Shown: positions 53,888-63,770 of the stretch, piece by piece
How positions within the stretch are numbered: the first letter of the stretch is position 1
Layout: each line of letters starts with the position of its first letter
Assembly: GCF_002878395.1 (NCBI RefSeq)
Contig: NC_061121.1
Span: 44,598,103 to 44,662,102 of the forward strand
Length of the DNA: 64,000 nt
Direction: 5' to 3'
From: Capsicum annuum
Taxonomy: Eukaryota; Streptophyta; Magnoliopsida; Solanales; Solanaceae
Position numbers and translations under genes: made by a program
The notes under the pieces: generated by a model
Databases searched by the model: none
What the model saw: the letters and a program-made list of their open reading frames with translations, nothing else
Told to the model about the DNA's origin: nothing

Positions 53888-54087
53888 TATATTTTGTGTA
53901 TAAAGTTAAAGTACTTTGACTAAGAAGCTTATTTTCTTGCTTCTGTCGAACATATATCTTAGGAAAAAACGCTTGCTTGTACACAGAGAGAAATGAAGGC
54001 CAAGAACCCTAGACCTAGAAGCTCTAAGTTTTTAATTTTCTTTGATCCAATACTAAACTTCTTCAAGCCTAATCATAGAAAACCAGA

Positions 54088-55285
54088 TTTATAGATTTTC
54101 CAAGGGAGATTATGGTGCAAATACTCTCAAAATTGCCAATCGCGTCCATTTTAAGCTCTAGGCATGTTTGCAAACTCTGGTATAATCTTTTTTCTAATCT
54201 TTTATTTCTTACCATGTATAGATCAAGATCACCTCCTCCCTGCATTTTGTTTTCACGTGATCACGGTATAAGTCGGCTTCTTGAACTTGATCCGTGTTGC
54301 GATGATGATTCTTCTAAACTCCGTAACAGACCTATTTTATTGAGCTGCCCCGAGCTTAACACTCCAGTGAAACGGGGAATGGACATTCCAGTTGAGGATT
54401 ACCCAATGTCGAGATTAATTGGTTCACGTAATGGATTTATTGGTTTGATGACTAATATATATGATATAAATACTTCAGTTTACATTAGTAATGCTCTTTT
54501 GGGTGAGTATTTCAAACTTAAGTTGCCCCAATTAGAGAAAAGTGATTGCAGTGTTACTTACAGATTTTACTTTAGTGAAGTCTCTGGAAAGCATAAGCTA
54601 GTGAGATCAATGACTAGAAGGTTTAGGGATAATCATGAAGTATCAGAATTGGATATTTATACTCTTGGGTTTGATGAGAAATGGATAAATTTGGGTCAAG
54701 TTCCATATCCTGTATGGTATGATTTTTGCCAGGTTTCTGTGAATGGGGCTCTTCATTGGATGGATCCCGTCAATAAGGACAGCATTTACTCCTCGATATT
54801 GAGACTGAAAAGCTCAAGTTTCTGCCAGGTCCACCTGGTCTAGTATCTCCATTCAAGTATTTAACCCAAGCAAAGTTGCAGAGATCTACATGTCCACCCT
54901 TGTGTTTGACGCTAGTAGAGTTGGGGAATTGTCCATGTTTAACTGATGATAGTGGTAGCATTTTTGGGTATATTGATATATGGTGGATGAAAGAGTATGG
55001 AATAGCCAAAATTTGGACTAGAGAACACATTTTGACTTGCTTGGGGCCGGCTGGTCTTGGGCTTGATATTTGTTATCATAAATATTTACCAATCCTAATC
55101 TGGAAAGATGGAGAAATCTCGATGCAAGGAAAAAAAGGCTCACAGCTATTTTCTTACAACCCAAAAGACGAGATTTTTAAGATATCGCAACTGTAGCGAC
55201 TAGATATCTTCCAAGTTTTTACTCACTCAAAACTGTTGTGGGGGGCAACTTTCAAGTCTCAAATGTCTATCCGAATAAAAGCTGA
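54088..55285 (+). pseudogene. F-box protein gene (block C), frameshifted
   Basis: The F-box starts just before the first ATG: FPREI precedes MVQILSKLPIASIL (ATG at 54112), then SRHVCKLWYNLFSN. It continues as an F-box-associated domain (RLIGSRNGFIGLM, YTLGFDEKWINLGQVPYPVW, VNGALHWMDPVNKDSI). The frame breaks near 54785; the next frame gives LDIETEKLKFLPGPPGL, then GSIFGYIDIWWMKEYGIAKI, WTREHIL and NPKDEIFK. A second shift near 55180 leads to the tail TVATRYLPSFYSLKTVVGG and stop at 55283-55285. The native start codon is absent. Such proteins recruit substrates to SCF ubiquitin ligases. The second copy (14304-14489) keeps only the tail. Probably a young pseudogene. Confidence 0.75.
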
Positions 55286-55490: not shown

Positions 55491-55564
55491 TTATTTCATT
55501 TGGCACTTCTCTGAAGAACAGTAACACGAAGGAATTGAGAGGAGCAACACCTTTTGAAGATCTC
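55491..55564 (-). pseudogene. SAUR (block C), separated 3' end
   Basis: On the minus strand: GDLQKVLLLSIPSCYCSS, then EKCQMK and TAA (55491-55493). It matches the end of the SAUR at 14696 and would join directly to AAGD at 58871 if the copia element were absent. The target duplication atctc is 55560-55564. Confidence 0.8.
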
Positions 55565-55889
55565 TGTTGAAAGTTGCTTTAAGAATGCAGCTATTTTTTT
55601 TCTTTTTTCTCCAGTTTTTTTACGTACAATCCTAGTTAAATTTGGAGTTCTATCTTTGGTAGGAAACTAATTAGTTATTTTAATTTTGGTAGAAATAGGT
55701 TGTTTCTTTTTCCTATGTTTAGTTGTAATAGCAACTATTTAAGTTGCTAAGTTGATAATCAATAATAGACGTTCAAAAACTAATATGTCTCTCTGCATAT
55801 TCTCTTCAAACTCCATCTCTGTTTCAGTGGCCAACTTTTGACTAAGTAAATTCCCGTTATTTCCCTTTAACAGTTTTAAACCAATAATT

Positions 55890-55901
55890 GGTATCAGAGC
55901 T
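55890..55901 (+). other. Primer-binding site of composite copia
   Basis: TGGTATCAGAGC, complementary to the initiator tRNA-Met 3' region, three bases after the 5' LTR. Confidence 0.85.
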
Positions 55902-55953: not shown

Positions 55954-57903
55954 ATGAATGGAGAAACAAATTTTTCTTCAATGGCACCACCAACTTTCGA
56001 TGGAGAAATTTATCAATCTAGGCAATTAGAATGCGGATATATCTGCAAGCTTTGGATCTCTGGGAAGCTATTGAAGAAGAATATGAGATAGCTCCCTTTC
56101 CGACAATCCCGTGGTGTCACAAATTAAGACTCACAAGGAGAGGAAAACTAGGAAATAAAAGGAAATGGCATGCTTATTTACTACAATTTCATCTAATATC
56201 TTGACTCGTATCATGTCTCTACAATAAGAGAAAGAGGTATGGGATTATCTCAAGACTGAGTATGAAGGAGATGAAAGGATTTAAGGGATGCAAGTGATGA
56301 ATCTGGTACGTGATTTTGAGATGCAAAGAATGAAAGAAAGTGAAACCATAAAGGAGAACTTTGACAGACTTCTTAATTTAGCAAATCGTATCAGATTGTT
56401 GGGTTTCACTTTCATTATTCAAGGATCATTCAAAAAATCCTAGTAACGGTACCTGAAAGATTTGAGTCTACCATAACAACTTTAGAAAATACTAAGGACT
56501 TGTCTAAGATCACACTTGCAGAGCTCTTAAGTGCTTTTCAAGCGCAAGAGCAACGGCGTGTTATGAGACAAGAAGGAGCTGTCGAAGGTGCCTTACCAGC
56601 CAAGCATCACGATGATGGACATTCTATGAAGAAGAAGAAGAATAAGTACCAAACAACTGATAAAGAAGGTGCAGTGCACAACAACAAAAACAAAATAGGT
56701 GGTTTTAAAGGAAACTACCCTCCTTGTAAGCATTGCGGCAAGCTCGGACATACACCTTTCAAGTGTTGGAAGAGGTCTGATGCTAAGTGCACTAAGTGCA
56801 ATCAGCTTGGGCATGAAGCAATCATCTACAAGAAAAAAAATCAACAGCAAGATGCAGAGGATCGGGTTATTGATGAACAGGAAGAAGATCAACTCTTTGT
56901 CGCATCATATTTTACAAGCAGTGTCTCAAGCGAGTTGTGGCTGATCGATAGCGGATGCACATATTATATGACTTGTGATAAAGATAATTTTAAAGATTTG
57001 AGGCCTACTAAAGTTACAAAATTTATAATTGTCCATGGTGGTTATATTCCAGCAAAAGGAATGGGAACCATTACAATTGAAACACAATCAGGCACTAAAA
57101 CAATTTCTGATGTTCTTTATGTACCCGATTTTGACCAGAACTTATTGACTGGTGGTCAGTTATTAGAAAAAGGTTTCAAATTGTATTTCAAAGATAATCA
57201 CTGCTTGATCAAGGAAGCATCTGGACAAGACCCATTTAAAATCAAAATGAGAGGCAGAAGTTTCTCAGTAAATCCATTGGAAGAAGAGCGTAGATTTCAC
57301 CAGTTGTGTGTGGATTCACCTCTGCTAAAAAAAGACATTCGACCTGAAGATGAAGGATGGCTTTGTCTTGGTTACGATTGTAAATTTGACTGCATTGACT
57401 TGCTTAATAATCTTCAAGGAATAGACTTTTCTGCCACTGACAGCTGGGAGAAAGTATACTCCAAGGAAACTATTGTTGCGTCTGAGGAGAAGCTACATGA
57501 TATTTCTGGACTTCCATCGGATGGCTCAGAGGATGATGACTACAACACTGAAAATCCAGATGTAGAAAAAAATAATTTTGAAGCTGAGGCCAGTTATGAT
57601 GAATCTAATTTTTTCTCAATATCTGAAGACTTGGCAGAAGCCCCTCCTAAAGATGATGGGATCTTGGGGCTTTCTTCTGAAGACTCGGAAGATGATGACT
57701 TTAATCTTGATGATCTAGATAAGGATGAGTTGGTTAAAACAAAATGTTTAAGCTATAATTTTATATCCGACTCTGAGGATTTTAGTTTGATAGTTGATAC
57801 TAACAGGTTACGAGGTGATGAGCAAGGAGTTTTTAGTTCAGTAGATAAAATTATGCCTAATTCGGCTTCCCAAGAGGAAAAAGCTAAAGTTGGCAAAGGT
57901 TAA
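55954..57903 (+). pseudogene. Composite copia gag-protease fused to HAT3.1-like PHD fragment
   Basis: The gag start (MNGETNFSSMAPPTFDGE) and UBN2 region (55954-56490) have frameshifts and stops. From 56500 a 467-codon frame is fully open: gag C-terminus (ITLAELLSAFQAQEQRR), zinc knuckle CKHCGKLGHTPFKC, a second knuckle lacking its last Cys, and protease (LWLIDSGCTYYMT; VLYVPDFDQNLLTGGQLLEK) to NPLEEE at about 57290. Without a break it then reads RFHQLCVDSPLLKKDIRPED, EGWLCLGYDCKFDCIDLLNN, DSWEKVY and twice an acidic motif (GLPSDGSEDDDY; GLSSEDSEDDDF). These are the PHD-finger end and acidic region of HAT3.1/PRHA-type PHD-homeodomain proteins; one PHD zinc ligand is Tyr (WLCLGY). The homeodomain itself is not included. 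It ends at TAA 57901-57903. Confidence 0.85.
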
Positions 57904-57915
57904 AGGAATTTACTA

Positions 57916-58500
57916 AAGAATGAGTTGTCATATCTTATGCAGTATGTGAGCCCTCTTGTCTCTTCCAAAAGGCAATTTGAGAAGTTGTTAGTTATTGCCA
58001 TGCAGGGAGCGTTTTTCAATTTTTACTTTGTGCTTTACTTGTTGTCCCACAAGTTTGCACACAGAGTTGTTTGTTATCTGGAAGAGGAGGCTATACACTT
58101 ATATACTTTGTATCTTAATGATATTGATCTTAGTAAAATTGAAAATGTCCCTGCTCCTGCGATAGCAATTGACCACTGAAGACTGCCTAAGGATGTGATT
58201 CTAAAAGATGTTGTTACTGTCATCCGTACTGATGAAGCTCATCATAGAGACGTTAACCATTTCGCATCTCCATGTGAGACATATTAGGCTGACTTGTCGA
58301 TTGATCTAAGAAAGCACCATTTGCCGAAGACATTCCTTGATAAGGTTTCTTATTGAACAGTGAAACTTCTCAAGATTTTAACTGATTTATTTTTTAAGAA
58401 AAGATACGGTTATCGTGCAATGATGTTGGAAACACTGGCAAGTGTACCAGGAATGGTGGGAGCTATGCTGTTACATCTAAGGTCGTTATGCATGTTCGAG
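57916..58500 (+). pseudogene. Captured alternative oxidase fragment, circularly permuted exons
   Basis: A fragment of mitochondrial ubiquinol alternative oxidase (AOX1 type). 57916-58269 corresponds to the 3' part of exon 3: [33 protein letters not shown] (58078-58098 LEEEAIH), [10 protein letters not shown] and [13 protein letters not shown]. 58270-58398 is exon 2, exactly 129 bp: PCETY, stop, ADLSIDLRKHHLPKTFLDKV to TDLFFK. 58399-58500 is the start of exon 3: [30 protein letters not shown] to FE. No intron lies between exon 2 and 3. The iron-ligand motifs LET, EEEAIH and DEAHH are kept. Three codons became stops (the Trp after AID, the Lys after ETY, and one after VSY). About 13 codons around SGGWIKALLEEAE are absent. 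The junction HFAS/PCETY keeps the reading frame. Confidence 0.9.
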
Positions 58501-58870
58501 CTTCCAACGCAAAGAATTGGTGTTGGCATTTCATAAACCAAGGAGGAGTGTTGAAAGTTGCTTTAAGAATGTAGTTATTTTTTTCTTTTTTCTCCAATTT
58601 TTTACGTACAATCCTATTTAAATTAGGAGAGTCCTATCTTTGGTAGGAAACTAATTAGTTATTTAATTTTGGTAGAAATAGGTTGTTTCTTTATCCTATT
58701 TTTAGTTGTAATAGCAACTATTTAAGTTACTAAGTTGATGATCAATAACAGACGTTCAAGAAAATAATTTGTCTCTCTGCATATTCTCTTCAAACTCCAT
58801 CTTGGTTTCAGCAGTCAACTTTTGACTAATTAAATTCTTGTTATTTCCCTTTAACGGTTTTAAACCAACA

Positions 58871-59230
58871 ATCTCCTGCAGCTACACCCTTCTTGATAAG
58901 CAAAATAATATAGTCCATAAAGGATGAATCGCAAAGTACTATAATGGGGCCAGCACTTGACAGGCCAAATTCTTCTTCGGATAAGATTAAAAGTTGTCTG
59001 ATGACCTCATTTTCAAGATAATCCAAGGGAATCGTGCAGTGCGTCTGATCAATTGTATACATTACAAAATGACCTATTCTGATTATTGAGGGTGAAGACG
59101 TACTACAACTGTCTGCATCACTACCATTTCTTGTAAGTGACATTCTCTTCCTCTTCATGGTTGTAAACTTCTGCCATCTCCTAACCATTTTGATAAGTTT
59201 CTTGGTACTGATCACTGTTTTTCTTTCCAT
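58871..59230 (-). pseudogene. SAUR (block C), main part, 3' end displaced by copia
   Basis: Minus-strand frame starting MERKTVISTKKLIKMVRRW, then GHFVMYTIDQTHCTIPLDYL, LSEEEFGLSSAGPI and SSFMDYIILLIKKGVAAGD. This is the larger SAUR clade (SAUR61-68 type). ISTKKLIKM is the usual start of the family, so the true Met may be the internal one. At AAGD the copia LTR begins; reading on gives nine foreign residues (CWFKTVKGK) and a stop at 58841. The original 24-codon tail is at 55491-55564. The SAUR core is intact, so a protein with an altered tail is possible. Confidence 0.8.
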
Positions 59231-63279: not shown

Positions 63280-63770
63280 CCACAGCCTTCGGCGCCGTCG
63301 CCGACCCGACCCGACCACCGGTCCCCGGCGTCGACCTCCGTCGCCGGTCTCCAGCTTCGTCGCGGGTCTCCGTCACTGTCGCCAGTCTTCGGCTCCGTCG
63401 TCGTCGTCGACCTACGGTGCCGACCCTACCGTCGGTCACCGACGTACCCTCTCTCTCTCCCGCGCCTCGGCCCTCCGGCCCCGTCGCCGTCGCCGACCTA
63501 CGGTGCCGACCCGACCGCTGGTCACCGACGCCGACCGCCGGACCTGACCGCCGGTCACCGACCCCCGTCGCCGAGATCTGGTTCCCTCCCTGCTGTACCC
63601 CCCACCCTCCCCCCTCCCCCCCCCTTCTCTGTCCAGACCACCCCCCCTCCTCCTTCGGCGCCGTTACAACAGTGCAGTAGCCATAGCTCGGTCTTCAGCC
63701 GCAACCGCCGTTCCATCGTCAGCAGCCGCGGATCCATCTCAGTAGTGATCCCCCGGCAGCAGGTCGACGC
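63280..63770 (+). other. GC-rich, CpG-rich low-complexity stretch
   Basis: About 490 bp dominated by imperfect repeats of cgccgacc, ccggtcaccgac and cgtcgtcg, in strong contrast to the AT-rich surroundings. It reads as an Arg/Pro/Ser-rich open stretch in one frame (to about 63680) without an ATG of good context, and as other open stretches on the opposite strand, as expected of simple GC-rich sequence. It is followed by 63771-64000, AT-rich and gene-free. It might be the leader of a gene or of an element that continues beyond the window. Confidence 0.5.

Follow-up and report, generated by a model that had tools for sequence, protein, structure and literature searches.

A non-autonomous LTR retrotransposon of Capsicum annuum carries exons 2 and 3 of the host alternative oxidase gene AOX2 in circularly permuted order, and these were very probably acquired when a reverse transcriptase copied a circular RNA of that gene once around. 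The element lies in the window, that is, the whole stretch of 64,000 nucleotides that was analysed. This reading is based on exon borders, exon order, the loss of the intron, a redundant full circle, microhomologies, LTRs and TSD, the copies of the element and the identity of the paralogue, all of them features of genomic sequence. What we infer is that a circular RNA served as template and was co-packaged, in which direction the enzyme jumped, and why copying ended after a single turn.

The element is about 3.3 kb long (Table 1), and the permuted cargo is enclosed by paired LTRs with a TSD, a PBS, which we take to be of the initiator-tRNA type (TGGTATCAGAGC), and a PPT, in agreement with the original prediction of a capture inside a retrotransposon. 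The two LTRs align with 298 matches, 24 mismatches and 6 gap columns (325 nt each, 3 flanking bases included), corresponding to a K2P divergence of 0.076. Remnants of gag and Pol_BBD domains are present, and reverse transcriptase is absent by Pfam from the frames scanned (window, L016, L021 and L044). AOX homology, first read from the letters, was recovered by Pfam in three of the four frame pieces scanned, the fourth being too short at 22 codons. AOX sequence had been thought to begin at 57916; it starts instead at about 57978, and the preceding 62 bases belong to a captured homeobox mRNA piece. Elsewhere in the window, open frames that we presume, from their likeness, to be related to an F-box protein are found immediately upstream of the element (54079-55196), and a GC-rich 58-nt repeat occurs in two copies at 63387-63530, within overlapping long frames on both strands.

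Table 1. Features of the retrotransposon in the window and map of its captured host sequence.
Feature	Position	Strand	Basis
TSD ATCTC, left copy	55560..55564	.	sequence; identical 5 bases after 3' LTR
5' LTR	55565..55886	+	direct repeats, alignment to 3' LTR
PBS TGGTATCAGAGC	55889..55900	+	sequence
Open frame with gag and Pol_BBD remnants (56416..57177)	56377-57903	+	Pfam
Copia gag remnant, Retrotran_gag_2	56416-56571	+	Pfam, below curated cut-off in window
Pol_BBD remnant	56938-57177	+	Pfam
Captured PRHA/HAT3.1 homeobox mRNA piece	57286..57977	+	blastn against host gene L043; name from homologues
AOX2 exon 3, position 198 to 3' end	57978..58269	+	blastn against C8 exons
Exon 3/exon 2 back-splice-type junction	58269..58270	+	exact match to host donor and acceptor
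AOX2 exon 2, complete, 129 nt	58270..58398	+	own-genome search, junction survey
AOX2 exon 3, positions 1-103, fused to exon 2 without intron	58399..58501	+	blastn against C8 exons
Leftover 3' end of homeobox mRNA and pre-PPT element sequence	58502..58536	+	present in AOX-free sisters L044, L045
PPT ACCAAGGAGGAG	58537..58548	+	sequence
3' LTR	58549..58870	+	direct repeats, alignment
TSD ATCTC, right copy	58871..58875	.	sequence

The host gene lies on the minus strand of C8 and was matched exon by exon in a search of the species' own genome; it is identifiable as AOX2, sharing 99% identity with the C. chinense protein P0001, named 'Ubiquinol oxidase 2'. Its exon 2 match is exactly 129 bp (query 355-483) with the borders TAG/CCATGGG...TTTTTTAAG/GTTTGA, exon 3 begins after TTACAG and ends ..CATTTCGCATCT/GTAAGT (..GCATCT/GTAAGT), and exon 4 begins GATATCC. 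In the assembly, exon 3 measures 539 nt, or 484 without a 55-nt insert; adding 5 nt that the host exon lacks and that are found in 13 of 30 copies gives 489, the plant standard for AOX exon 3, and exons 2 and 3 together then make 129+489 = 618 nt. As assembled, host exon 3 (L010, C8:161683142-161683682) is broken, by the 55-nt insertion with its 13-nt duplicated target and by a small frame-shifting deletion. The insertion, presumably the 3' end of a SINE to judge by its resemblance, gave no match in the window by word search. The annotated AOX2 of C. chinense (P0001) is intact, and the C. annuum protein P0009 ends at the same place as the broken host gene.

In the cargo, the end of exon 3 is joined to the start of exon 2 (CATTTCGCATCT/CCATGTGAGACA) exactly at the host splice borders, exon 2 is present whole, and exon 2 runs on into exon 3 at TTATTTTTTAAG/AAAAGATACGGT (58398/58399), again on exact borders and without intron 2, which measures 5237 bp in this genome. 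All three features had been proposed for this stretch, and coincidence of the junction with exon borders had been posed beforehand as a test; the agreement with the host splice sites is to the base. In 30 of 30 loci the end of the downstream exon meets the start of the upstream exon at exact splice sites, as in a back-splice, with no base gained or lost. Since the join is common to all of these loci and both of its sides are host splice borders, chance is not a serious option. Exon 1 and exon 4 sequences were not found in the cargo by blastn against the C8 exons, nor was a poly(A) tail found on it; both cargo ends lie inside exon 3, and in full-length copies homeobox sequence adjoins the cargo on both sides. 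A linear processed retrocopy of the LINE type was ruled out by the permuted order and the absent tail.

The ancestral cargo can be read as one full turn of the 618-nt circle of exons 2 and 3 with a terminal redundancy of 1-10 nt. It begins at exon-3 position 94, continues to the end of that exon, takes in exon 2 and stops at exon-3 position 103, and the 10 nt AAGTTCGAGC are present at both ends. At the left border, the homeobox host gene reads ..GCAAAGGAG AAGTT GGGCAAAG, in which AAGTT is microhomology with AOX2. At the right border, the AOX-free sister element L045 reads ..CAACA GAGC TTCTAAGGCAAAG, in which GAGC is microhomology with AOX2 as judged from L045; L044 and the host homeobox gene differ at that place, so this microhomology hinges on the choice of ancestral sister copy. 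The bases of AAGTT and GAGC are assignable to either partner, AOX2 or homeobox. Between them lies exon-3 position 99, which only AOX2 can account for and which occurs at both cargo ends, so the AOX2 stretch comprises 619-628 nt. This position is C at both ends in 11 of the 17 full-length copies read and is substituted at one end in the other six (L017, L021, L023, L027, L028 and L030); other border bases are altered in L016, L017, L020, L023 and L028. A full-circle length with so short a redundancy suits a circle better than a linear template, which favours the circular RNA originally proposed. That RNA had been described as opened inside exon 3; the location in exon 3 stands, but the circle would rather have been copied once around, the enzyme entering and leaving inside that exon.

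In the window, the gap between the two exon-3 parts, estimated earlier at about 13 codons, takes in exon-3 positions 104-197 and is thus about 31 codons (94 nt) long. It is a later loss confined to a subclass of three copies (window, L014 and L015), and a second template switch was probably its cause. By its sequence, the subclass seems to have arisen by recombination, its left part resembling L044 and its right part the main class, and PRHA and AOX2 share the similarity GAGAGG at the recombination place.

An identical exon 3/exon 2 junction would be yielded by a linear AOX2 transcript, trans-spliced or with repeated exons (E2-E3-E2-E3), and trans-splicing is known in plants. We consider such a template unlikely: by simple arithmetic, independent points of entry and exit would lie one unit apart to within 10 nt with a chance of about 20/618 (3%), and no tandem exon array was seen by tblastn at AOX2 in a stretch of 37 kb. 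With regard to how a circle could form, pairing of the flanking introns as driver of circularisation was ruled out, none being found between introns 1 and 3. These introns have no perfectly complementary run longer than 9 nt, and in duplex energy they do no better than shuffled sequences, 52 of 100 shuffles giving an equal or lower value. The sole strong antisense match in the wider AOX2 flanks is 17 nt long and links exon 1 to a stretch lying downstream of the gene. The missing pairing would speak against a circular template in mammals, but according to the accessible part of one source, plant circular RNAs mostly do without it, complementary flanking introns accounting for 0.3-6.2% (PMC6454147).

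Searching the genome with the window stretch gave 43 matches, comprising the window itself, near full-length copies, fragments and the host C8 gene. Counted from the table, 30 of the 43 span the junction, which sets a lower bound of at least 30 loci; they are the window, 20 further copies retrieved with flanks of about 3 kb, and nine retrieved with short flanks. The cargo starts at exon-3 position 94/97 in 24 of these 30 loci (97 in L016 alone), at 198 in the window, L014 and L015, at 234 in L022, at 371 in L041 and at 374 in L042. It ends at positions 101-104 in 28 of them, at 91 in L037 and at 50 in L040. Divergence (K2P) across 14 LTR pairs ranges from 0.037 to 0.078, which at substitution rates of 6.96e-9 and 1.3e-8 per site per year dates the insertions to roughly 1.4-5.6 million years ago. 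Exact 5-bp TSDs, at different sites, accompany six of the 14 pairs; among the eight that are without one, two have 4/5 bases in agreement and two have a cut 3' LTR. In a tree of 26 of the 30 copies (the four with least cargo were omitted), host AOX2 stands outside a single clade that unites the copies (support 0.87). With at least 30 loci, one clade and differing TSDs, the cargo transposes together with the element. Four AOX2-bearing copies lie within 76 kb on C9 (218242330-218318347), perhaps through local duplication.

The permuted cargo might also be a functional and selected part of the element, giving a fused Gag-PRHA-AOX protein. The 618-nt circle is divisible by three and has no stop in the host codons examined, and in L032 a 549-aa open frame runs across all joins and is annotated as LOC107873755 (P0243). 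We regard such a function as very unlikely, because in-frame stops occur in 25 of 30 copies and are lacking in five (codons examined), and private substitutions fit the neutral expectation. Among the 266 of 277 private substitutions that are classifiable, 188 are nonsynonymous, 57 synonymous and 21 stops, against 191.4, 59.2 and 15.4 expected. Raw dN/dS (0.52 for cargo against host, 0.74 between copies) says little, because the two wrong frames give 0.45-1.08. Selection on the fused frame was rejected on the strength of these neutral substitutions: the AOX2 cargo evolves neutrally, with no sign of retention for function.

Read-through of tandem AOX genes, the upstream exon 3 being spliced to the downstream exon 2, could have supplied a linear chimera for capture, and such an arrangement does occur in this genome as a pair on C1 (24244422 and 24250845). 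Other AOX loci with both exons are C1:250392013, C2:49684458, C9:63350599, C9:153807337 and C12:208756636. A permuted or tandem host paralogue was sought as the original prediction had suggested. Exon 2 precedes exon 3 in 8/8 AOX loci outside the element family, C8 included (own-genome protein search, counting loci with matches to both exons as read from the table by eye), and the sole tandem pair, on C1, is the wrong paralogue. The cargo parts match AOX2 and not AOX1, the source first named. When the parts were compared with C8 AOX2 and with one C1 gene, whose exon 3 slice is 3 bases off the true borders, 21 of 21 copies were closest to AOX2. Their identity to AOX2 is 92.7-98.4% for E3a, 83.7-95.3% for E2 and 88.3-95.1% for E3b, against 65.7-75.3%, 70.4-77.2% and 75.8-88.2% for the C1 gene, with L015 a near tie in E3b, the shortest part (88.3 for AOX2 and 88.2 for C1 AOX1). 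Moreover, AOX2 is the sole AOX gene found by tblastn in the 37 kb around it, and read-through does not predict a cargo length of one unit. Because the cargo parts are AOX2, tandem-gene read-through drops out and is given only the slightest chance. Template switching is plainly common in the element family, but a jump between two linear AOX2 mRNAs or a later DNA rearrangement, with a merely coincidental border match, is in practice refuted and its probability close to nil, since the join sits exactly on both exon borders in 30/30 loci and has no microhomology on linear mRNAs (GCATCT/GATATC at exon 3/exon 4 versus TTCATG/CCATGG at exon 1/exon 2), whereas the three other AOX2 joins seen in this family are internal to exons and have 4-6 nt in common with their partners.

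A circular template is thus preferred because its join sits on splice borders where the other AOX2 joins lie within exons at microhomologies, because linear mRNAs offer no microhomology at that join, because exons 1 and 4 are absent, and because the points of entry and exit, one unit apart, agree to within 10 nt. In the mechanism that we propose, an enzyme in a Copia virus-like particle would have been copying the RNA of a non-autonomous element already bearing the PRHA homeobox mRNA piece. At the GAGC microhomology it would have switched to a 618-nt circular RNA that consisted of AOX2 exons 2 and 3 and was packaged in the same particle, copied this circle once and run 1 to 10 nt past the place where it had entered. 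With free template exhausted, a return jump at AAGTT would have led to the PRHA part of the element or of a host RNA, and the product, once integrated, would have been the founder that multiplied to at least 30 loci. The RNase H of LTR retrotransposons degrades the template behind the reverse transcriptase, and the stop after one turn could mean either that RNase H had removed the template or that the enzyme met its own product; a one-turn copy is expected if either blocks the second turn, which again favours a circle. We think it likely that a Copia reverse transcriptase copied a co-packaged circle exactly once, leaving no more than 10 nt from its entry because RNase H or its own product left no template for a second turn, and that permuted cargo of unit length, with a short terminal redundancy, is the form in which LTR retrotransposons preserve a record of circular RNAs. 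The once-around length hints at how the enzyme leaves a circle, and exon-border permutation combined with unit length and short terminal redundancy provides a signature with which genomes can be searched for circular RNAs of the past. At the genomic level, the evidence suggests that a plant LTR reverse transcriptase can use as template circular RNAs that have entered virus-like particles.

AOX2 is accompanied by other host sequences in this family. Homologues of the homeobox piece are named pathogenesis-related homeodomain protein or HAT3.1, and its source exons lie at C8:165086500-165092500 (L043); in the element they are joined, two host introns being missing. Captured host sequence is therefore spliced for PRHA and AOX2 alike, and the spliced PRHA piece beside AOX2 speaks for an RNA route. 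In L021, a member of the main class, a third host piece (L021:2303-2825) lies inside PRHA and is colinear with its source, a C12 gene (L046) with a 960-aa frame and Myb/SANT-like domains, which we take to be POWERDRESS-like. The sisters L044 (1480-2130) and L045 have no AOX2 and contain a GH17 (glucan endo-1,3-beta-glucosidase) mRNA piece inside the homeobox cargo; the C. chinense protein P0145 is, going by its name, a possible annotated copy of such a GH17-bearing element. Permuted order was not found in the PRHA, Myb/SANT and GH17 pieces examined, the first two being colinear with their sources and GH17 with one stretch of the Pfam profile. Altogether, the element family took up four host RNAs, three of them linear and one, AOX2, that we infer to have been circular.

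Copies had also been suggested for related genomes, and the permuted AOX2 is indeed found in C. chinense and C. baccatum. The best 120 of 1116 matches were examined in the protein search, and the permuted-join pattern had 12 matches among 288 proteins (those listed in three protein searches together with the L032 frame), namely the L032 frame and 11 public proteins; a twelfth public protein, P0247 (HFISPWETN), was spotted by eye. Among the matches listed, all 12 public permuted proteins (P0243-P0254) are from Capsicum (annuum, chinense and baccatum), and P0243 is 100% identical to the L032 frame, a C6 copy, over residues 300-549. The top-scoring Centaurea protein P0242 contains two AOX copies in normal order and hence is not a case. 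The homeobox/AOX2 border is identical in C. baccatum P0244 and C. chinense P0246 and P0249, and because it is common to all, a single capture before the split of C. annuum, C. chinense and C. baccatum is likely. P0243-P0254 are mostly named 'Ubiquinol oxidase 2, mitochondrial', and several are fused to gag or Pol_BBD domains. Judged by these sequences, they are retrotransposon frames with permuted AOX2 and their annotation is mistaken. Such misannotation would inflate the AOX family in pepper, and AOX2 back-splice reads in pepper could stem from element loci and be misread as a sign of circular RNA.

Gene capture by plant LTR elements is exemplified by maize Bs1, and to our knowledge the known captures are colinear pieces of linear mRNAs, whereas the pepper AOX2 piece is circularly permuted at exon borders. 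Plant LTR retrotransposons capture host genes by abnormal template switching, and as far as the accessible text of a review describes them, these captures resemble that in pepper in their non-autonomous Copia-type elements, spliced host mRNA pieces, TSDs, microhomology at joins and amplification (PMC13317346). That text has no mention of circRNAs or back-splicing, and a literature search covering mostly papers outside subscription found no published case in which a plant LTR element had captured a circular RNA. For circular RNA from alternative oxidase in C. annuum, the literature listing gave one paper, which deals with ethylene signalling. Circular RNA-derived pseudogenes are known in mouse and human (circRFWD2 and circSATB1; Dong et al. 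2016, as reviewed in PMC5345220 and PMC5408686). In the portions of these sources available, they share with the pepper cargo a back-splice junction retained in genomic DNA and consist of the exons of the circle, mostly without poly(A) (PMC5345220), and for mouse LTR sequences are noted in the flanks of some (PMC5408686). Complementary flanking introns are usual in mammals and, according to the part of the source available, rare in plants (PMC6454147). The pepper case differs from the mammalian pseudogenes in deriving from a plant gene, in lying inside a defined LTR element between a piece of a second host mRNA and the PPT, and in comprising one full turn with terminal redundancy that was multiplied through transposition of the element. 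Circular RNA-derived pseudogenes in mammals and template-switch capture by plant LTR elements are thus known, and what seems to be new is the probable capture of a circular RNA by a plant LTR element.
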